The notes below the pieces were generated by a model that saw only the letters and a list, made by a program, of their open reading frames with translations, ran no database searches and was not told the origin of the DNA. From an uncultured Ulvibacter sp. (GTDB taxonomy: Bacteria; Bacteroidota; Bacteroidia; Flavobacteriales; Flavobacteriaceae), in assembly GCA_943789105.1 (NCBI GenBank), contig CALSSW010000001.1:434001-498000 (forward strand): a stretch of DNA of 64,000 nt, given 5' to 3'. Shown here in pieces: positions 3,816-19,390 of the stretch (the first letter of the stretch is position 1; each line of letters begins with the position of its first letter). Both the position numbers and the translations under genes were made by a program.

Positions 3816-3889
3816 GGCCTCGTGGCGCAACTGAATAGCGCACTTGATTACGGCTCAAGAGGTTACAAGTTTGAATCTTGTCGAGGTCA
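3816..3889 (+). tRNA. tRNA-Arg (anticodon ACG)
   Basis: A 74-base cloverleaf. The acceptor stem GGCCTCG pairs with CGAGGTC (one G-U pair), the D stem is GCGC, the anticodon stem CTTGA/TCAAG holds loop TTACGGC with anticodon ACG at 3850-3852, and the T stem is ACAAG/CTTGT. CCA is not encoded. It has its own promoter and a strong terminator, so it is a single-gene unit. The repeat-bearing gene array starts about 80 bases downstream, but I found no second copy of the tRNA 3' end that would mark a classic tRNA-integrated island. Confidence 0.93.
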
Positions 3890-3900
3890 CTACTATTTAC

Positions 3901-3932: not shown

Positions 3933-3972
3933 ATTTTATGTACACTTTAATTGTCTTTTTTAGGGTATTTAA

Positions 3973-4032
3973 GCCTATTTACGTGGTTTAGAAATAGCTG
4001 AACTGAAGGAGGAAGATATGCCTATGGTTTAG
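3973..4032 (+). repeat. Array repeat R1 (coding-like 3' tail, long type)
   Basis: On the + strand this copy reads A-YLRGLEIAELKEEDMPMV and then TAG at 4030-4032, with an in-frame stop directly upstream, so only the last 19 codons of a gene are left. It matches R2 with four synonymous codon differences (CGT/AGA, CTG/TTG, AAG/AAA, GAA/GAG) and one replacement (A/T). Similarity to other copies ends at the stop codon. On the - strand its complement supplies the last codons and stop (KP, TAG) of the 58-residue gene to its right. Confidence 0.85.
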
Positions 4033-4198
4033 TTGTTACTTTATTTAGTTGTATTATTGAAAATACGAGAATAATGATACTTCCAAGTGTTCTTGACAAA
4101 AACTCTAATTGAGACATTGGCTCACCTTGATAGCCAAAAGTATATAAGAAGTTTAATGAAGCTATTATAATTACTATAATCAGTAGTAGTTTTTTCAT
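4022..4198 (-). CDS. Small two-helix membrane protein (array unit 1)
   Basis: A 58-residue protein with two hydrophobic segments, LLLIIVIIIASLNFLY near the N-terminus and LGSIIILVFSIIQL near the C-terminus, joined by a short polar loop. The ATG at 4198 is preferred to a TTG two codons upstream. No family is recognised. The last two codons and the stop are read from the complement of repeat R1, and repeat R2 lies about 20 bases before the start, so the gene fills one repeat-to-repeat interval. Function is unknown; it is one of three such tiny membrane proteins in the array. Confidence 0.6.
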   Translation of the reverse strand: MKKLLLIIVIIIASLNFLYTFGYQGEPMSQLEFLSRTLGSIIILVFSIIQLNKVTTKP

Positions 4199-4215
4199 AC
4201 TCAAATATAAGAAAT

Positions 4216-4284
4216 GTAAGTTTAACCTATTTAAGAGGTTTAGAAATAGCTGAATTGAAAGAGGAGGATATGCCTATGGTTTAG
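4216..4284 (+). repeat. Array repeat R2 (coding-like 3' tail, long type)
   Basis: The longest clean copy with R7. In the same + frame as R1 it reads NVSLTYLRGLEIAELKEED, then MPMV and TAG at 4282-4284 (the first N lies just before 4216). The upstream flank aaatgtaag is shared with R7, so the repeat extends at least five codons further left than R1. To the right of the stop codon nothing is shared. Its complement supplies the KP-stop end of the next - strand gene. Confidence 0.85.
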
Positions 4285-4477
4285 GATTTTTTTTCTTTGA
4301 ATTATCTTTTTTCCAAATATATTTTCCAAACATTATAATCAATCCTATTAAAAGAAAAATACTTCCATTTGGATAACCATCAAACACATAATCATTAGAA
4401 ACGTATCCATAAACAATCCAAATTAATCCTATACTTGCTGTTATAACCCCTTCGTTATTTTTAATATATTTTTTCAT
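4274..4477 (-). CDS. Small two-helix membrane protein (array unit 2)
   Basis: A 67-residue protein, ATG at 4477. It has a short charged N-terminus (MKKYIKNNEG), a first hydrophobic segment VITASIGLIWIVYGYVS, a loop YVFDGYPNG, a second segment SIFLLIGLIIMFGKYIW and a basic tail ending KKNPKP. The tail KP-stop is read from the complement of repeat R2. The 28 bases before its start are nearly identical to those before the 480-residue gene at 5978 (ccccaatttacaacatttag), so the unit's 5' flank is shared too. Function unknown. Confidence 0.65.
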   Translation of the reverse strand: MKKYIKNNEGVITASIGLIWIVYGYVSNDYVFDGYPNGSIFLLIGLIIMFGKYIWKKDNSKKKNPKP

Positions 4478-4505
4478 ATCCCCAATTTACAACATTTAGT
4501 TTTTT

Positions 4506-4539
4506 CTTAAACTATCTGAAGAAGATAGCTATGGTTTAG
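4506..4539 (+). repeat. Array repeat R3 (short type)
   Basis: Short-type copy beginning CTTAAACTATCTGAAGAAGA and ending ATGGTTTAG. The + frame reads LKLSEED and then diverges from R4 by a small indel, so this copy is degenerate. Its arms CT(T)AAACTAT and ATGGTTTAG can pair over nine bases with one bulged T and one G-T pair. Bases 4478-4505 to its left are nearly identical to those left of R4. The complement carries the stop of the 480-residue gene. Confidence 0.75.
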
Positions 4540-5978
4540 TCATAGTAAGGCTTACCATTTTTGTCTTGTAAAGACATCATAAGCTCAAAGCAAAGTTGAT
4601 CTATATTGTCTTGAAAGGAATTAAAAGCTGAAACGTTAGATAAAATTACAATGCCTGTTTGGTTTTTAATATCTATTGCCATTGAAGAAGTGTATCCACC
4701 TGTTCCTCCATTATGCCAATGCCATTTATTATCCGATTTTTCTGAGTTTATTATATGCCAACCGAGCCCTAAATCAACCTGATCATTAAGCTTAACTGTT
4801 TTTTTTGTCATTAACATCAAATCCAAATTAGATTTATTAAAATGAGCGATTCCATATTTTGTTAAATCTTCAACATTGGATAAGATTCCCCCTGCACTTG
4901 ATAAAGAAGCTAATTCCCAATTTGATGTATGATTTCCTTCAATATCAAGACCTTTAACAAGTTTTTCATTTACCAAGTTTATATTGAAAGTTGTGTTTTT
5001 CATATTATGTTTTGAGAAAATATATTTCTCATACAGTTCCTCATAATTTAAATTATAAATATTACTTAGTGTGAATCCTAATAATCCCATTCCCAAATTT
5101 GAGTATTCTGAATTTCCAATATTTTTATCATCAATTTCCATAAAATTTATTAGATAATCTTTTAAATATTCATCATTATAATGTTTGTAGGGGTTGTCAG
5201 AAGAATACGCCTCCTGTTCAAAATTTGATGGCATTCTTGGTAATCCTGAGGTATGGTTAGCAAGACTTTTGAAAGAAATTGAAAAGTTATTTTTAAACTT
5301 TATGTCTAAGTAGTCATTAATGTTTTCATTCAGTTTTATCTTATTATCGATTACTGATTTAGCTAATATGTTTGCTGTAAAAACTTTTGTGATTGAACCA
5401 ATCTCAAAAATATCTTTATAGTTAGACAAATAAAAAATTGAGTCATTTTGACGTTTTAACCCGTAATAAGTTACTTTGTCACTGTTGATAAATGCTAACG
5501 AAATTTGAGTGTTATTTGGAAAGTATTTTGACTTTTCAAAAATTAATTCAATTTGTTTATCAGAAATTAAACTGCCATTATTTGATAAACTATTTATAGC
5601 CAAGCCTGAAAGAATCTCATCTCGAAAAGTATCAAAGTAAAAAACTTCAGCTATTTTTTTATCGTCATCAATTGAAAAGCTGTATTGTGAAACCCATTTT
5701 TCAAAAGTCAATTTGTAAATTGAGATATTATTTTCTTCTCTAATAAATTCATTTTCAGAAATTTTACCTGCATTAGAATTTAAATTTTTAAGAAAATCTG
5801 TCAGTTCGTTTATCGGTAATGTTGTTTTCATTTCAGCAGAAAATAATTCAAAAACTGATTGATAATCCTCATTGTTATAAGCTTTAATAAAATCATTAAC
5901 CAATTCCTGTCCTTCAAACTTATCTTCTTGAGCATTCATCAAAAAAGGAATAAATAGTAATAGTATTAGCTTTTTCAT
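4536..5978 (-). CDS. Serine beta-lactamase-like hydrolase with N-terminal DUF3887-like domain (array unit 3)
   Basis: 480 residues. A signal peptide (MKKLILLLFIPFLMNAQ) precedes a domain of about 110 residues resembling the DUF3887/NTF2-like fold (NDFIKAYNNEDYQSVFELF). A class C beta-lactamase/penicillin-binding domain follows. Its catalytic motifs are complete: S195-I-T-K198 (SxxK), Y292-S-N294 (YxN) and H422-N-G-G (in place of KTG). It is therefore probably an active periplasmic serine hydrolase, peptidase or esterase; the true substrate is unknown and antibiotic hydrolysis should not be assumed. It is the largest gene in the repeat array and its stop lies in repeat R3. Confidence 0.85.
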   Translation of the reverse strand: MKKLILLLFIPFLMNAQEDKFEGQELVNDFIKAYNNEDYQSVFELFSAEMKTTLPINELTDFLKNLNSNAGKISENEFIREENNISIYKLTFEKWVSQYSFSIDDDKKIAEVFYFDTFRDEILSGLAINSLSNNGSLISDKQIELIFEKSKYFPNNTQISLAFINSDKVTYYGLKRQNDSIFYLSNYKDIFEIGSITKVFTANILAKSVIDNKIKLNENINDYLDIKFKNNFSISFKSLANHTSGLPRMPSNFEQEAYSSDNPYKHYNDEYLKDYLINFMEIDDKNIGNSEYSNLGMGLLGFTLSNIYNLNYEELYEKYIFSKHNMKNTTFNINLVNEKLVKGLDIEGNHTSNWELASLSSAGGILSNVEDLTKYGIAHFNKSNLDLMLMTKKTVKLNDQVDLGLGWHIINSEKSDNKWHWHNGGTGGYTSSMAIDIKNQTGIVILSNVSAFNSFQDNIDQLCFELMMSLQDKNGKPYYD

Positions 5979-6006
5979 ACCCCCAATTTACAACATTTAG
6001 TTTTTA

Positions 6007-6039
6007 CTTAAACTATCTGAAGATATGCCTATGGTTTAG
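6007..6039 (+). repeat. Array repeat R4 (short type)
   Basis: The + frame reads LKLSEDMPMV and TAG at 6037-6039, the same tail as R1 and R2 but with a different preceding sequence. The region just left (5979-6006) is nearly identical to that left of R3. Arms CT(T)AAACTAT and ATGGTTTAG form a nine-base-pair hairpin with one bulge. Sharing ends at the stop codon. Confidence 0.8.
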
Positions 6040-6155
6040 TTTCTATTCTTTCTGTATATCCTTAAAGCTTCATAAGCACAAGCTAATGCCCCAATTGAAC
6101 AAACTATTATAATAATGTTTTTGTATTCGGGTTCATCAGAGAGAAAATAGCTGAA
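6036..6155 (-). pseudogene. Remnant of a small membrane-protein gene (array unit 4)
   Basis: An open - strand frame of about 39 codons lacks any start codon. Its translation ends with a hydrophobic segment (NIIIIVCSIGALACAYEAL), a basic tail RIYRKNRN and a TAA read from the complement of repeat R4. That is the same arrangement as the intact units 1, 2 and 5, so this is most likely the 3' end of a further small membrane-protein gene that has lost its start. It lies between R4 and R5, which are only about 100 bases apart. Confidence 0.5.
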
Positions 6156-6185
6156 TTAAAAGAAGAGGATATACCTATTTTTTAG
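6141..6185 (+). repeat. Array repeat R5 (diverged long type)
   Basis: The + frame reads EKIAELKEEDIPIF and TAG at 6183-6185, so the reading frame, the core IAELKEED and the stop position are kept while M-P-M-V became I-P-I-F. The left part (YLRGL) is replaced by FIRE. The complement gives the end of the 55-residue gene to the right. Confidence 0.7.
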
Positions 6186-6342
6186 ATTTTAAGCACTCAA
6201 GCCAAACAAGTATAGTAGCTACTATAATACCTGCCCAAATAAACAGCTCAGCTATACTAATATCATAAACTCTCCAAATAATAAATGACAGGGTGCTTAT
6301 TGTCAAGGATGTGATACAAGCAATCTTATATGATTTTATCAT
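6175..6342 (-). CDS. Very small two-helix membrane protein (array unit 5), 55 residues
   Basis: ATG at 6342 and stop TAG at 6177-6175 give a 55-residue protein: MIKSYKIACITSLTISTLSF, a turn WRVYDIS, then a second hydrophobic stretch ELFIWAGIIVATILVWLE and a basic end CLKSKK. It is below the usual 60-residue reporting limit and easily missed. The stop lies in the complement of repeat R5 and R6 begins about 20 bases before its start, so it fills exactly one repeat interval like its neighbours. No homologue is recognised. Confidence 0.55.
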   Translation of the reverse strand: MIKSYKIACITSLTISTLSFIIWRVYDISIAELFIWAGIIVATILVWLECLKSKK

Positions 6343-6362
6343 ATTCTAAACATAGTAATTAA

Positions 6363-6412
6363 TTTACGTGGTTTAAATAGCTGAACTGAAAGAGGAAGAG
6401 TATTCCTACAAA
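6363..6412 (+). repeat. Array repeat R6 (frameshifted long type)
   Basis: Keeps LRGL and, after a two-base deletion, IAELKEEE, then diverges at the 3' end (TATTCCTAC in place of GATATGCCTATGG). It is the most decayed long copy. Its complement still carries the TAG stop of the 113-residue lipoprotein gene. Confidence 0.65.
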
Positions 6413-6747
6413 CCTATTAGTACCCCTAAAAAAACAGCAAAAAGCACAGCAGTTACTACTAATGCTGAACCGGCGAGTAGTCCAGAAGATTTTAAAAGTG
6501 AAAACTTTCTAACTTTCACTTCATAAATTTCATCCACAGAAATTTCTTGTAGTTGCCCATTAGTATCTACAGTCAATGTTTGCTCATTTTTAGAAACTAA
6601 GGTTCCTTTAATATTTATTCCTCCAATCGCTTTTACCTCAACCTTTTGTTTTTTTTCAATTGGAATAATATCATAGTTTACTGTCTTATAACTAAAACAA
6701 CCTTGAAACAAAATTAAAAATGACAGTAATAGATAAAGTTTTTTCAT
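6406..6747 (-). CDS. Small lipoprotein with C-terminal membrane segment (array unit 6)
   Basis: A 113-residue protein with a lipoprotein signal peptide: MKKLYLLLSFLILFQGC, cysteine at 17. The middle is beta-rich (VEVKAIGGINIKGTLVSKNEQ, TLTVDTNG, ISVDEIYEVKVRKF), resembling short SH3-like or LSm-like barrels in Bacteroidota lipoproteins. A long hydrophobic tail from about residue 88 (SSGLLAGSALVVTAVLFAV) runs to the stop. The stop lies in repeat R6. Function is unknown; the envelope location is inferred from the lipobox. Confidence 0.7.
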   Translation of the reverse strand: MKKLYLLLSFLILFQGCFSYKTVNYDIIPIEKKQKVEVKAIGGINIKGTLVSKNEQTLTVDTNGQLQEISVDEIYEVKVRKFSLLKSSGLLAGSALVVTAVLFAVFLGVLIGL

Positions 6748-6820
6748 AATTATGTTAATGTGTTTTAAATTGTAATTTACAATTAATTATGTGTTAATAA
6801 AGAATTGCTCTCATATAAAT

Positions 6821-6890
6821 GTAAGTTTAACCTATTTAAGAGGTTTAGAAATAGCTAAACTGAAAGCAGGAGGATATGCCTGCAGTTTAC
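6821..6890 (+). repeat. Array repeat R7 (long type, altered 3' end)
   Basis: Shares NVSLTYLRGLEIA with R2, including the aaatgtaag flank. It then reads KLKAGGYACSL because one extra base (GCAGGAGG against GAGGAGG) shifts the frame and the TAG is lost. The changed bases create a GCAGG/CCTGC hairpin not found in R1 or R2. R8 has the same extra base. Confidence 0.75.
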
Positions 6891-6943
6891 TTGTTATTTA
6901 AAATTAATATGTATAAATTTATGGCTAACTAATTTATTAAAAT

Positions 6944-7435
6944 ATGAAAAATTTATTTCTATTAATGGCTGTGATATTAGTTACAGCTTGTCAACAAACA
7001 GTTGAACCAACAGTCTCAATCTCTGACGAAGATATTGTTAGTGCTTTAAAAGAAAATGCCGTAAATCTTCAAGAAGCTATTCTCACACAAAACTCAGAAG
7101 AATTCAACAAGTATGTTGATAAGAACATCGCTTTTTCAACTGGAGACTCAAACTTAAGCAAGTTTTACACAATGAGTACTGAAAGTTTTAATACTGCACC
7201 AGTAGCTAAATGGGGAGAGTTTGATTTATATGACATTAATGTAGCTCTTTCACCAGATTCAAGAACTGCTGTACTTACCTTTTACGCCAAAGGAGATTAC
7301 ACAGTAGCAGATGAGGATAAAGTCGATTATAGTACAAGAGCCTCTTCTGTTTGGATTTCAACAGAAAATGGGTGGAAAATAATGCATTCAAGCTGGGCTC
7401 CTTTTGGAGGAGGTAACGGAATACCAAGTAAATAG
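6944..7435 (+). CDS. Lipoprotein with NTF2-like (DUF4440/SnoaL-type) domain (array unit 7, reversed)
   Basis: A 163-residue protein. The signal MKNLFLLMAVILVTAC has a lipobox cysteine at 16. The rest has the helix-then-sheet pattern of the NTF2-like fold: SALKENAVNLQEAILTQN, then VDKNIAFS, VALSPDSRTAVLTFYAKGDY and SSVWISTENGWKIMHSSWAP, the last typical of DUF4440-type proteins. No catalytic residues are evident. It lies between R7 and R8 but, unlike the other array genes, runs on the + strand and has its own terminator, so it does not depend on neighbours for expression. Confidence 0.7.
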   Translation: MKNLFLLMAVILVTACQQTVEPTVSISDEDIVSALKENAVNLQEAILTQNSEEFNKYVDKNIAFSTGDSNLSKFYTMSTESFNTAPVAKWGEFDLYDINVALSPDSRTAVLTFYAKGDYTVADEDKVDYSTRASSVWISTENGWKIMHSSWAPFGGGNGIPSK

Positions 7436-7474
7436 CATGTATTATTAAATATTGAAGCTTATAACTTTTATTAA

Positions 7475-7506
7475 AAAAAGGAGTTACAGTAATGTAATTC
7501 CTTTTT
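7475..7506 (+). terminator. Terminator of the NTF2-like lipoprotein gene
   Basis: AAAAAGGAGTTACA pairs with TGTAATTCCTTTTT (14 pairs, one G-T) around loop GTAA and ends in a T tract. It lies about 40 bases after the stop codon at 7435. The A-rich left arm means it could also work on the - strand. Confidence 0.85.
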
Positions 7507-7534
7507 CTATTTATCAATACATCATTAAGATTTT

Positions 7535-7582
7535 ACTTATACTATCTTAATTAAAGCAGCAGGATATGCCTTTGGTTTAAAC
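7535..7582 (+). repeat. Array repeat R8 (short/mixed type), right end of array
   Basis: Begins acttatactatctt like R3 and R4 (acttaaactatct) and continues AAAGCAGCAGGATATGCCT like R7, ending TTTGGTTTAAAC. The + frame reads LIKAAGYAFGLN and then TAA just beyond. It looks like a hybrid of the two repeat types. No further copy was seen to the right, so it marks the right edge of the array. Confidence 0.7.
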
Positions 7583-7679
7583 TAAGGTTAATGTTATATA
7601 AATAGTTTTCTTCTAATCCAACTTGATTTTGATTTTTTTAGTTGTTATTTGTAATGATTGTATTAATCAATACTGCATT

Positions 7680-12531: not shown

Positions 12532-14400
12532 TTATTGTTCCATTTTTTCAGAGAGCTCGAACCAGCGCATTTCTTTTTCAGACAAACCATCAATGATGTC
12601 CTGCAATGTTTTAGATTGCTTATTAATTTGCTCCTGGTCCCAATTTTCTGTGGCAAATTTTTGTTGTAAAGAGTCGCGATCCCTTTCCAGTTTTGCAATG
12701 TCCCTCTCTAGGCGGTTATATTCTTTTTGTTCTTGATACCCTAGTTTGGTTTTTGTGGTAGCTGTTTTCCAATTTTTCTTTTCTGTTTTTGGCGATTCTT
12801 CATCTCTTTTTTCTGAAATTTTACTATCCTCATAGGTTCTATAATCACTATAGTTACCTGGGAAATCTAGTATTTCACCACCTCCCTGAAATACAAAAAG
12901 ATGATCTACGATCTTGTCCATAAAATAACGATCATGACTTACCACAATAAGACATCCGGGAAAATCTAGTAAAAAACTCTCCAATACGTTAAGTGTTACA
13001 ATATCTAAATCATTGGTAGGTTCATCCAAAATAAGAAAATTTGGATTTTGAATAAGCACCGTACACAGGTACAGTCTTTTTCTTTCACCACCACTTAATT
13101 TATCTACAAAGTCATACTGTTTTTTTCTATCAAACAAAAAACGCTCTAATAAACCCTGTGCGCTAATTTGGCGTCCTTTTTTTAATGGGATGTAATCTCC
13201 AAACTCTCTAATAACATCAATTACTTTTTGTCCTTCTTTAATATTAATTCCTCTTTGGGTATAGTATCCAAATTTTACAGTATCGCCAATAACAACTTTT
13301 CCAGAATCTGGCTTTAGTGAGCCCGTTAGTATGTTTAAAAATGTAGATTTTCCAGTACCATTTTTTCCTATAATTCCAATACGTTCTGCTCTTAGAAAAT
13401 TATATTCGAAACCATTAAAAAGGGTGTTGTTATCATAGGTTTTACCTATTTTGTGTATCTCAACTACCTTGGTGCCAAGTCTCTCCATGTTAAGTTCTAA
13501 CTCTACCTGGTGGTCGTTACGTCTTTTATGGGCTTTGTCTTTAATCTCACTAAAGTCATCAATTCTAGATTTACTTTTAGTGGTTCTTGCCTTTGGTTGG
13601 CGGCGCATCCAATCCAACTCTTTTTTATATAATTGTTTTGCTTTGCCTGTCTCTGTAGTTTCAGCCTCTATTCTAGCGTCTCTTTTTTCAAGATAATAGC
13701 TGTAGTTTCCTTTATAACTGTATAGATTACCTTGATCTAATTCTACAATTTCATTACATACACGTTCCAAAAAATACCTGTCATGGGTAACCATAAAAAG
13801 AGTGAGATTTTCTTTTGCAAACAAAGCTTCAAGCCACTCAATCATTTCCAGATCTAGATGGTTTGTGGGCTCATCCATTACCAGTAAATCTGGTTTTGTG
13901 AGAAGTGCATTGGCAAGGGCAAGTCTCTTTTTTTGTCCTCCACTTAAATCACCTACTTTTTTGTTAAGATTTTCTAATTTTAATTTAAATAATATTTGCT
14001 TGTATCTTGTTTCAAAATCCCAGGCATCATGAGCATCCATAGCATCAAAAGCGGCTTGGTAATTTTCTGTTTGTTCTGGATGTAGAATTGCTTTTTCGTA
14101 GGTTTGAATAACCTCCAATACTGGGTTATCGCTAGCTAAAATAGTCTGCTCAATGGTAAGGCTTGTGTTTAGGTTTGGTTCTTGAGAGAGAAAAGCAACG
14201 GTTAGATTTTTTCTATACACCACAGCGCCCTTATCTGGAGTGTCTATCCCAGAAAGGATATTTAAAAGAGACGTTTTACCGGTTCCGTTTTTGGCGACAA
14301 ACCCAATTTTTTGTCCTTGATTGATACCAAAGGAGATATCTTCAAATAAGATACGTTCACCATAAGATTTTGCAACATGTTCAACAGAGAGGTAATTCAC
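12532..14400 (-). CDS. ABC-F family ATPase (Uup-like)
   Basis: A soluble protein with two ABC domains and no membrane segment; the family acts on ribosomes or nucleic-acid processes. The start is taken as GTG 14400 (MNYLSVEHVAKSYGER), which matches the usual family N-terminus; a TTG six codons upstream is possible. The first ABC domain has FVAKNGTGKTSLLN, LSGGQKKRLALA and LLVMDEPTNHLD. The second has GIIGKNGTGKSTFLN, LSGGERKRLYL and FLILDEPTNDLD. Between them is a charged linker (KARTTKSKSR). A C-terminal coiled coil (RLERDIAKLERDRDSLQQKF) is the Uup-type DNA-binding arm. The broken methyltransferase gene lies 12 bases downstream. Confidence 0.92.
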   Translation of the reverse strand: MNYLSVEHVAKSYGERILFEDISFGINQGQKIGFVAKNGTGKTSLLNILSGIDTPDKGAVVYRKNLTVAFLSQEPNLNTSLTIEQTILASDNPVLEVIQTYEKAILHPEQTENYQAAFDAMDAHDAWDFETRYKQILFKLKLENLNKKVGDLSGGQKKRLALANALLTKPDLLVMDEPTNHLDLEMIEWLEALFAKENLTLFMVTHDRYFLERVCNEIVELDQGNLYSYKGNYSYYLEKRDARIEAETTETGKAKQLYKKELDWMRRQPKARTTKSKSRIDDFSEIKDKAHKRRNDHQVELELNMERLGTKVVEIHKIGKTYDNNTLFNGFEYNFLRAERIGIIGKNGTGKSTFLNILTGSLKPDSGKVVIGDTVKFGYYTQRGINIKEGQKVIDVIREFGDYIPLKKGRQISAQGLLERFLFDRKKQYDFVDKLSGGERKRLYLCTVLIQNPNFLILDEPTNDLDIVTLNVLESFLLDFPGCLIVVSHDRYFMDKIVDHLFVFQGGGEILDFPGNYSDYRTYEDSKISEKRDEESPKTEKKNWKTATTKTKLGYQEQKEYNRLERDIAKLERDRDSLQQKFATENWDQEQINKQSKTLQDIIDGLSEKEMRWFELSEKMEQ

Positions 14401-17962: not shown

Positions 17963-19390
17963 ATGAAAAAATTTACGTCTCTGCTTTTATTGTGTTTTGT
18001 TACCCTTTTATATGGTCAAACTCCTTGCGAGAATGGAATGGCAGGAGTCTATCCATGTAATGGTTATGATCTTCTTTCTGAAATGACAGTTTCAGAATTT
18101 GATTCATCCAATGCCAATGATTCATGGGGCTGGACAGATCCAGATACAGGTTCTGAATATGCATTAATTGGTTTGTACGATGGTACTGCATTTGTAAATA
18201 TTGACGATCCAGTAAACCCTGTATATCTTGGAAAATTAGACACACATACAGATCCAAGTCTCTGGAGAGATGTAAAAACCTATGGTAATTACGCTTTTGT
18301 AGTTAGTGAGGCTTCTGGACATGGAATGCAAGTTTTTGATTTAACTAGATTACGAGATGTATTTAACCCTCCTGTAAGTTTTACAGAAGATGCCCATTAC
18401 AGTGGTTTTGGTAATGCACACAATCTTGTGATCAATGAAGACTCTGGATACGCCTACGGTGTAGGTACCTCAACCTACAACGGAGGCCCCCATTTTGTGG
18501 ATATTTCAAACCCACTGAATCCAACAGCTGCTGGTGGATTTGCTACAGATTCTTACTCTCATGATGGCCAGGTAGTAACTTATAATGGTCCAGACTCAGA
18601 TTACACTTCCAGAGAAATTTATATTGGTAGTAATACCTCATTTGTCTCTATTGTTGATATTACAGATAAATCCAACCCTCAGTCTATTGCAACTGTTACG
18701 TATTCAAATACGGTTTATACCCATCAAGGATGGTTTACCGAGGACCATCGTTATTTTATTTTAGGTGATGAAATTGATGAAATTAATCTTGGTTTTAACA
18801 CCAGAAGTATTGTCTTTGATTTTCAAGATTTAGATAATCCAGAATTACATTTTGAGTATGAAGGCCCAACAGCTGCCACAGATCATAACGGATATGTAAA
18901 AGATGATATTTATTATTTAGCAAACTATACGGCTGGAGTTAGAATGATTGATATAAGCGGTATAGACAATCAAGATTTTCAAGAAACAGGATTCTTTGAT
19001 GTTTATCCCTCAGGTAATAATGCAGGATATAATGGCGCCTGGAATGTATACCCTTATTTTGAGAGTGGTACCCTTTTGGTAACCACTCTTCGATATTCAG
19101 ACGAAAATTTTGTCCCTGGCATGTTACTTATCAGAGACAGTAGTCTTTCAAGTTCAGATATAAATACTATTGAAGTTTCTATGTATCCAAATCCTGCCAG
19201 CGAAATATTAACGATCGAGGCTCCAAACCAAGATGTGTTTAAAATAGCTATCTATGATATGGCCGGAAAGGAGCTTTTTCAAACAAATAAAACAAACGCT
19301 TTAGTTACGATAGATGTGTCATCGTTTTCACAAGGGGTTTATTTTGTGACCCTAAATGATACACATACCAAAAAACTAATAATGCAGTAA
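17963..19390 (+). CDS. Choice-of-anchor B family protein with type IX sorting domain
   Basis: 475 residues. The signal peptide MKKFTSLLLLCFVTLLYGQ is followed by a beta-propeller-like domain with repeated units of the form VNIDDPVNPVYLG, FVDISNPLNPTAAG, VSIVDITDKSNPQSIA and RMIDISGI (LVIVP-type repeats). This matches the choice-of-anchor B domain. The last 75 residues form a Por secretion tail: VSMYPNPASEILTIEA, IAIYDMAGKELFQT and GVYFVTLNDTHTKKLIMQ. It is therefore predicted to be exported by Sec, carried over the outer membrane by T9SS and attached to the surface. Substrate or ligand unknown. Confidence 0.9.
   Translation: MKKFTSLLLLCFVTLLYGQTPCENGMAGVYPCNGYDLLSEMTVSEFDSSNANDSWGWTDPDTGSEYALIGLYDGTAFVNIDDPVNPVYLGKLDTHTDPSLWRDVKTYGNYAFVVSEASGHGMQVFDLTRLRDVFNPPVSFTEDAHYSGFGNAHNLVINEDSGYAYGVGTSTYNGGPHFVDISNPLNPTAAGGFATDSYSHDGQVVTYNGPDSDYTSREIYIGSNTSFVSIVDITDKSNPQSIATVTYSNTVYTHQGWFTEDHRYFILGDEIDEINLGFNTRSIVFDFQDLDNPELHFEYEGPTAATDHNGYVKDDIYYLANYTAGVRMIDISGIDNQDFQETGFFDVYPSGNNAGYNGAWNVYPYFESGTLLVTTLRYSDENFVPGMLLIRDSSLSSSDINTIEVSMYPNPASEILTIEAPNQDVFKIAIYDMAGKELFQTNKTNALVTIDVSSFSQGVYFVTLNDTHTKKLIMQ

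Follow-up and report, generated by a model that had tools for sequence, protein, structure and literature searches.

We analysed a 64-kb window, a stretch of 64,000 nucleotides from the genome of an uncultured Ulvibacter sp., in which eight copies of a repeat separate a series of small genes. The repeat corresponds to the last part of a tyrosine recombinase gene. Judging from sequence comparisons, we consider it likely that the locus is an array, without a recombinase of its own, belonging to a cassette system that resembles integrons and uses the end of the recombinase gene as its recombination site.

The eight copies, R1 to R8, lie on the + strand and span 3972-7580 according to a repeat finder and a site model built as a sequence profile, in agreement with an earlier note on this DNA that had described eight copies in a 3.6-kb block. 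Over all 64 kb, the site model identified seven copies, every one within 3961-7579; R3 was visible with the repeat finder and was not caught by the site models. A scan with a short motif gave six matches against 0.08 expected. The single extra match outside the block was at 18447 and had three mismatches; the note had noticed no copies elsewhere in the window. R1 (long form, 3972..4032; repeat finder, site model) reads YLRGLEIAELKEEDMPMV followed by a stop, and R2 (long form, 4212..4284; site model) specifies the same residues through other codons. Between 3976-4032 and 4228-4284, 5 of 57 nt differ and every difference is silent, for which the chance with five random changes is P = 0.0004. This silent-change test supports the past selection on a protein that the note had deduced from the same codons. 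The frame is also open to the stop in R4 (short form, 6004..6039, SEDMPMV; repeat finder, site model) and R5 (6145..6185, IAELKEEDIPIF; site profile, frame test), as had been claimed, and likewise at the very end of the divergent R8 (7546..7580, KQQDMPLV; site model, frame test). The frame is shifted or degenerate in R3 (short form, 4503..4539; repeat finder), R6 (6362..6408, without a stop; site profile, frame test) and R7 (6815..6890, a long form with an insertion and without a stop; site model, locus comparison). Likeness among the copies stops at the stop codon, the limit given in the note. The left side of R3, R4 and R8 is unrelated to the tail, only the right-hand part being common with the other copies, and the other left-side sequence of R3 and R4 stands in front of two cassette genes.

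To identify the parent gene, which the note had presumed lost, an 18-residue tail was searched against the window genome (2.1 Mb in 5 contigs, 83% complete). It matched two long open reading frames (ORFs) and otherwise only places in the window array. One ORF, of 347 aa, ends exactly in the tail and the other, of 349 aa, ends one residue later; both are tyrosine recombinases (PF00589 at 53 and 50 bits; cut-off 27). The repeats are thus the coded 3′ end of a protein gene, as proposed, and that gene is intact twice in the same genome. The tail begins at the tyrosine of ...MGHSSINVSLTYLRGLE..., which we take to be the position of the catalytic tyrosine. Across 39 recombinases, R207, K235, R298, H321 and Y330, presumably the catalytic residues of the family, are invariant, as are D, M and P of the tail; position 295, where we assume the first histidine usually stands, is a tyrosine in all 39. 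A predicted recombinase structure had a mean predicted local distance difference test (pLDDT) score of 85 and a predicted template modelling score of 0.58; pLDDT was below 50 in the stretch 322-337, which includes the tyrosine, and averaged 84 over the last residues. The sole PDB sequence match at E≤0.001 was the XerC-like recombinase 4a8e, and PHROG integrase models also matched the recombinases. Because the parent is a recombinase, the repeat turns from a passive scar into a probable recombination site.

The same arrangement recurs in other genomes. A scan of GTDB species genomes for relatives of the recombinase yielded 79 loci, from the best 80 of 145 confirmed; two of these, L086 and L087, belong to a genome of the window's own genus, G007. 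Most are labelled uncultured Flavobacteriaceae or other Bacteroidota, and the labels of L077 (Nitrospirae) and L099 (Rhodobacteraceae) perhaps reflect binning errors. Among the 77 recombinases whose stop was reached, 39 had at least one further copy, some short, of their own last 75 nt in the locus (E≤1e-3). In a control at E≤1e-6, the 3′ end recurred for 27 of 61 recombinases versus 12 of 629 for other ORFs with a length of 150 aa or more; judged by position, three or more of these 12 ORFs themselves terminate in a site. The repeated site comprises the last 45-72 nt of the recombinase gene. Array sites were nearest to the recombinase of their own locus, with a mean fractional rank of 0.153 (93 sites against 76 recombinases) and a value below 0.5 in 35 of 38 loci. 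With a 44-bp site profile, 88 sequences yielded 188 sites, a count that includes the recombinase ends; after reversal they yielded 0. The 88 sequences comprised 77 of the 79 loci (L086 and L087 were omitted), 10 loci from the genus and the initial 14 kb of the window. Two or more sites were present in 40 of the 88.

A protein family carrying the tail, for which the note had suggested a search, thus exists. Within the genus, the tail was found at E≤0.01 in 5 of 11 genomes, and a sixth, G009, has a degenerate site at the tRNA-Arg spot. In a Flavobacteriaceae sample, 5 of 120 genomes matched; the five, among them the window genome, are 1.7-2.2 Mb in size. A sample taken from the class gave 8 of 395. 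The tail was present in 17 of 22 genomes (G014, G130-G150) of another, small-genome genus, where the sites occupy many chromosomal places.

The sites bear the marks of two constraints. We compared 101 array sites with the recombinase end, after excluding sites that contained gaps or exceeded 20 mismatches. For the window and for the recombinase-less genus loci L044 and L047-L050, the reference was the window genome's C2 recombinase. The frame was open to the stop in 74 of the 101, against 40.6 ± 4.4 expected. Differences at the three codon positions numbered 101/63/236 in codons 7-15 and 191/104/167 in codons 1-6, and a rotation test over 8 sense codons gave P = 10/6561. At the same time, GATATGCC was nearly invariant, its silent position included. 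Aspartate codons were GAT rather than GAC at a ratio of 77:1 in the last 12 codons versus 479:311 in the body of the gene, and this excess at a silent position indicates a constraint on the DNA. While 58 of 71 recombinases end in the standard MPxx-stop, the frame of the other 13 continues past the usual end. Most simply, a cassette inserting at the 3′ end of the recombinase gene would swap the gene's last codons for its own.

Most array units hold a single gene, encoded antisense to the recombinase. In 92 of 95 inter-site segments there was an ORF of 40 aa or longer, and the other 3 had none of 30 aa; the longer segments hold more than one gene. The longest ORF was antisense in 76 of the 92. 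For 20 of the 76, the stop of this ORF and the end of the site overlap by precisely 4 nt, so that one sequence terminates both genes. The motif TAnnTTTG, which we take to be the Bacteroidota −7 box, precedes 19 of 55 cassette genes (antisense genes beginning at most 150 nt from the next block), with 4.2 expected after base shuffling and 1 on the other strand. The cargo is diverse: 69 cassette proteins, that is 68 of 89 listed ORFs after short doubtful ones and duplicates were dropped plus one window gene, matched 41 Pfam families, the commonest represented by three. Anti-phage cargo was considered and rejected, PADLOC giving just one weak match among the 69. A phage origin was likewise set aside, as a pattern scan of IMG/VR matched 12 stretches of which 0 were confirmed.

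Single units are common to different genomes in another order or beside other neighbours, in the clearest cases at 81-99% identity. Unit 4 of locus L088 equals a unit of L084 over its full length (96.5%), its unit 3 equals a unit of L068 (96.4%) and its unit 2 resembles L084 (81% over 87%). The order A-B in L090 corresponds to B-X-A in L092, where the last unit is cut by the contig end. These shared and reordered units are what cassette shuffling between arrays would leave. In junction alignments, common identity extends from about GATATGCC, or slightly earlier, at the stop side to about GTTAGT, or slightly later, at the start side. We also compared all pairs of 75 recombinases beyond the stop, and four pairs passed the likeness cut. 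In L127/L114, the recombinase bodies are 92.8% alike, the last 33 nt match at 32 of 33 and the next 200 nt are 100% alike. In L043/L046, from one genome, the bodies are 99.5% alike and the next 200 nt 79%; the other two pairs had no sharp change in likeness at the recombinase end. The first two pairs support the recombinase end as a point of exchange. Separately, at L145:1274-1571 the same cassette start, which also begins L088 unit 3 and a unit of L068, follows two successive sites; this cassette was therefore probably duplicated in tandem.

We propose that a tyrosine recombinase from tRNA-inserted islands elsewhere in the genome would act on the window array, its home recombination site being the last part of its own gene. 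A cassette would typically consist of one antisense gene with one copy of the site at its 3′ side. As a circle, it could enter either at the end of the recombinase gene or wherever another copy of the site lies; strand exchange would join the recombinase 3′ end with the site of the circular cassette, or two array sites with each other. An incoming site would furnish the last codons and stop of the recombinase. The site would then be bound by two constraints: its DNA core, around GATATGCC, would have to support strand exchange, and its ELKEEDMPMV-stop frame would have to complete a working recombinase. Cassettes would therefore have to carry the code for the recombinase tail, the recombination site being the terminal part of that gene. 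The identity of the tail, the arrays, the sharing and reordering of units, the varying content of one spot and the preservation of the frame are seen in the sequences themselves, whereas the recombinase as the mover of cassettes, their circular form and the exact crossover point are inferred.

Several observations weigh against this proposal. Several of the recombinases reside in tRNA islands, and their main substrate may accordingly be tRNA sites; a comparison of tRNA sites with array sites found no clear likeness. No recombinase adjoins the window array. In 16 of the 92 segments, the longest ORF is in sense orientation. A single site was present in 45 of the 88 profiled sequences and none in 3, many recombinases being without a visible array, with the proviso that arrays are undercounted because many loci stop at a contig end. 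In the genus of G014, only 1 of 45 tail matches lies in an open frame above 100 aa, so that the frame appears to be kept there without a visible recombinase, in a scan that recombinases with diverged tails could escape. In shared cassettes, the central ~40 bp of long sites go with neither neighbour, and the junction alignments yielded no one crossover point that fits both junctions. Finally, the clean case of tail transfer is one pair, L127/L114.

The main rival, which we regard as unlikely, is that old island insertions left recombinase 3′ ends behind as the repeats, and that ordinary homologous recombination between these shuffles the genes without any action of the recombinase on the repeats. 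The long sites, of ~72 bp and up to 100% alike, would permit this, and the breakpoints of shared cassettes, near both repeat edges and with the middle exchanged, are as general recombination predicts. However, several arrays have sites of only ~30 bp, which is short for RecA exchange. Nor does homologous recombination predict one gene per repeat in a preferred antisense orientation, a near-invariant GAT at a silent position or arrays joined to the recombinase's own 3′ end. Long repeats may nonetheless undergo homologous recombination and so contribute to the shuffling. A history without mobility, in which a gene end was duplicated locally in tandem and then decayed, would suit the confinement of all window copies to 3.6 kb and the degeneracy of some. 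It is scarcely credible given that the units carry unrelated genes, recur in other genomes in changed order and are replaced by other units or by none at the same spot in relatives.

A divergent true integron, with an IntI integrase located elsewhere and attC cassettes, would share one gene per site, preferred orientation, shuffled order, diverse cargo and integrase-less arrays with the present system, and the IntI model TIGR02249 weakly matches 34 of the 39 recombinases (best E 2e-8). We nevertheless judge it very improbable. An integrase of the IntI family was rejected because TIGR02249 scored far under its cut-off (23-26 bits in four recombinases against 265), and XerA/XerC models match the recombinases equally well or better. 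Attachment sites that fold like attC hairpins were also rejected: for 111 sites, the mean z-score was 0.03 and 0.04 on the two strands, with 4 sites below −2 per strand; among the eight window copies, one had a z-score of −2.6. Moreover, the attachment site here is in the coding end of a recombinase.

The window array is anchored by a tRNA-Arg(acg) gene upstream (3816..3890, +), which is beside clpS in 10 of 10 genome loci scanned, the window's own included. The conserved left flank of the first site, GTCTTTTTTAGGGTATTT (3953..3970, +), is identical or nearly so in G000, G004, G005 and G009. The content behind the tRNA differs between relatives, the kind of difference in units that the note had suggested looking for: six units, one of them a remnant, in the window genome; two units and then the same DUF4440 gene in G005, with which R7 is shared as the array end; the first site and then the contig end in G004 and G009; a different gene in G007; and in G008 no array, just a short spacer up to the next conserved gene. 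Insertion at a gene 3′ end, the explanation originally favoured, accounts for this layout. The array itself is without the tRNA-island form, in which a tRNA direct repeat is at both ends and the recombinase beside one. Imperfect direct repeats (TTTTTTAG...TATT) bound the block at 3955-3970 and 7634-7649, the right one also occurring in the empty spot of G008. Given these flanking repeats, the whole block may have entered as one piece.

Six cassette positions lie on the − strand. The gene at 4022..4204, from the ORF list, encodes 60 aa from its first possible start (58 aa from an ATG at 4198) and has its stop inside R1. By eye, its N-terminus is hydrophobic, and its unit has DNA relatives in L092 and L122 (80-81% over 65-79% of the unit). 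A match to the Bacteroidota −7 promoter motif lies at 4202..4209 on the same strand (TATATTTG). Next come genes of 67 aa (4274..4477; ORF list) and 480 aa (4536..5978; ORF list), the latter with DUF3887 and a beta-lactamase-fold serine hydrolase domain (PF00144) in a domain search. A gene remnant without a start (6040..6140) is by eye a relative of a 63-aa cassette gene of G005 (L049:4897-5088). It is followed by genes of 55 aa (6175..6342; L117 DNA match of 87% over 78% of the unit) and 113 aa (6406..6747; ORF list and domain search, DUF6897 slightly under the cut-off). The DUF4440/SnoaL-like gene at 6944..7435 (+), with close orthologues in G004 and G005, runs in the reverse orientation. The note's rule of one small gene per gap therefore stands except that the R4-R5 unit holds only the remnant and the R7-R8 gene is reversed.

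Both recombinases of the window genome are in islands adjoining partial tRNA gene copies, with the intact tRNA copy at the other end of the island. Eight recombinase islands, picked for having two tRNA copies in view, have the recombinase beside one of them; 32 of 73 recombinase loci contain no tRNA at all. Between these two, L022 and L023 (G000 C5 and C2), recombinase DNA is 89.7% alike over 1723 bp, from mid-gene through the downstream genes, and the first half of the gene is without DNA likeness, which suggests a probable swap of the DNA-binding half. A 96-aa protein beginning MNTTGKKFGGRQKGTPNK adjoins recombinase ends at L022:8247-8537, L023:10399-10689 and L043:8589-8879 and 12668-12958; the copies are identical by eye, and family matches were weak only. 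Long repeat-rich surface-type proteins with many DVSNVTDM repeats occur near recombinases or sites in L022, L043 and L156.

On balance, we favour the view of a bacterial gene-capture platform with an origin separate from that of integrons. The recombinase's own coding end would serve as the recombination site, and cassette insertion would rewrite the enzyme's C-terminus. If so, each cassette would be a spare part for the recombinase, the genetic code would lock cassette pool and enzyme together, and tail-breaking cassettes would end further capture. The recombinase site would be read as both DNA and protein. To our knowledge, integrons are alone among well-known bacterial systems in capturing and reordering individual genes; if another system unrelated to them does so, the strategy evolved more than once. 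Most of the hosts here are flavobacteria that have not been cultured; their genomes are small, and by their labels many are marine. The site would offer a route to cassettes that are expected to escape a search based on IntI and hairpin attC.

Among known systems, mycobacteriophage integrases with attP in the 3′ end of int provide one parallel, as integration alters the integrase C-terminus; there, however, one prophage enters in one event and there is no array of tail-carrying cassettes. The present recombinases also resemble those of tRNA-inserted genomic islands and tycheposons in often adjoining tRNA copies, in small genomes. Among the titles and abstract openings listed for tycheposons and tRNA-inserted islands, none mentions a cassette array at a recombinase's own 3′ end, and among those listed from open-access papers none describes such a system, an earlier description in print being possible. 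The present system is integron-like in its working, yet it lacks two defining features of integrons that were tested, the integrase family and the folding of the site. In the excerpts of the published account (PMC9024848), integrons and integrase-less attC clusters (CALIN) are alike to it in single-gene units, one site per gene, orientation, shuffling and arrays without an integrase. By contrast with integrons as presented in those excerpts (PMC9024848), the recombinase here is not IntI by the curated cut-off, the site is the recombinase's own 3′ coding end without a hairpin signal, the array adjoins the 3′ end of the recombinase gene and is oriented towards that gene, and a promoter-like motif lies ahead of 19 of 55 cassette genes. 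The nearest idea met in print, in a partial text (PMC8371274), is the archaeal suicidal integrase (SSV1, pTN3, pT26-2), whose site is inside the recombinase gene and whose insertion splits that gene. The putative recombination site described here is likewise within a recombinase gene, but at its very end; the gene stays whole and its last codons are apparently replaced.

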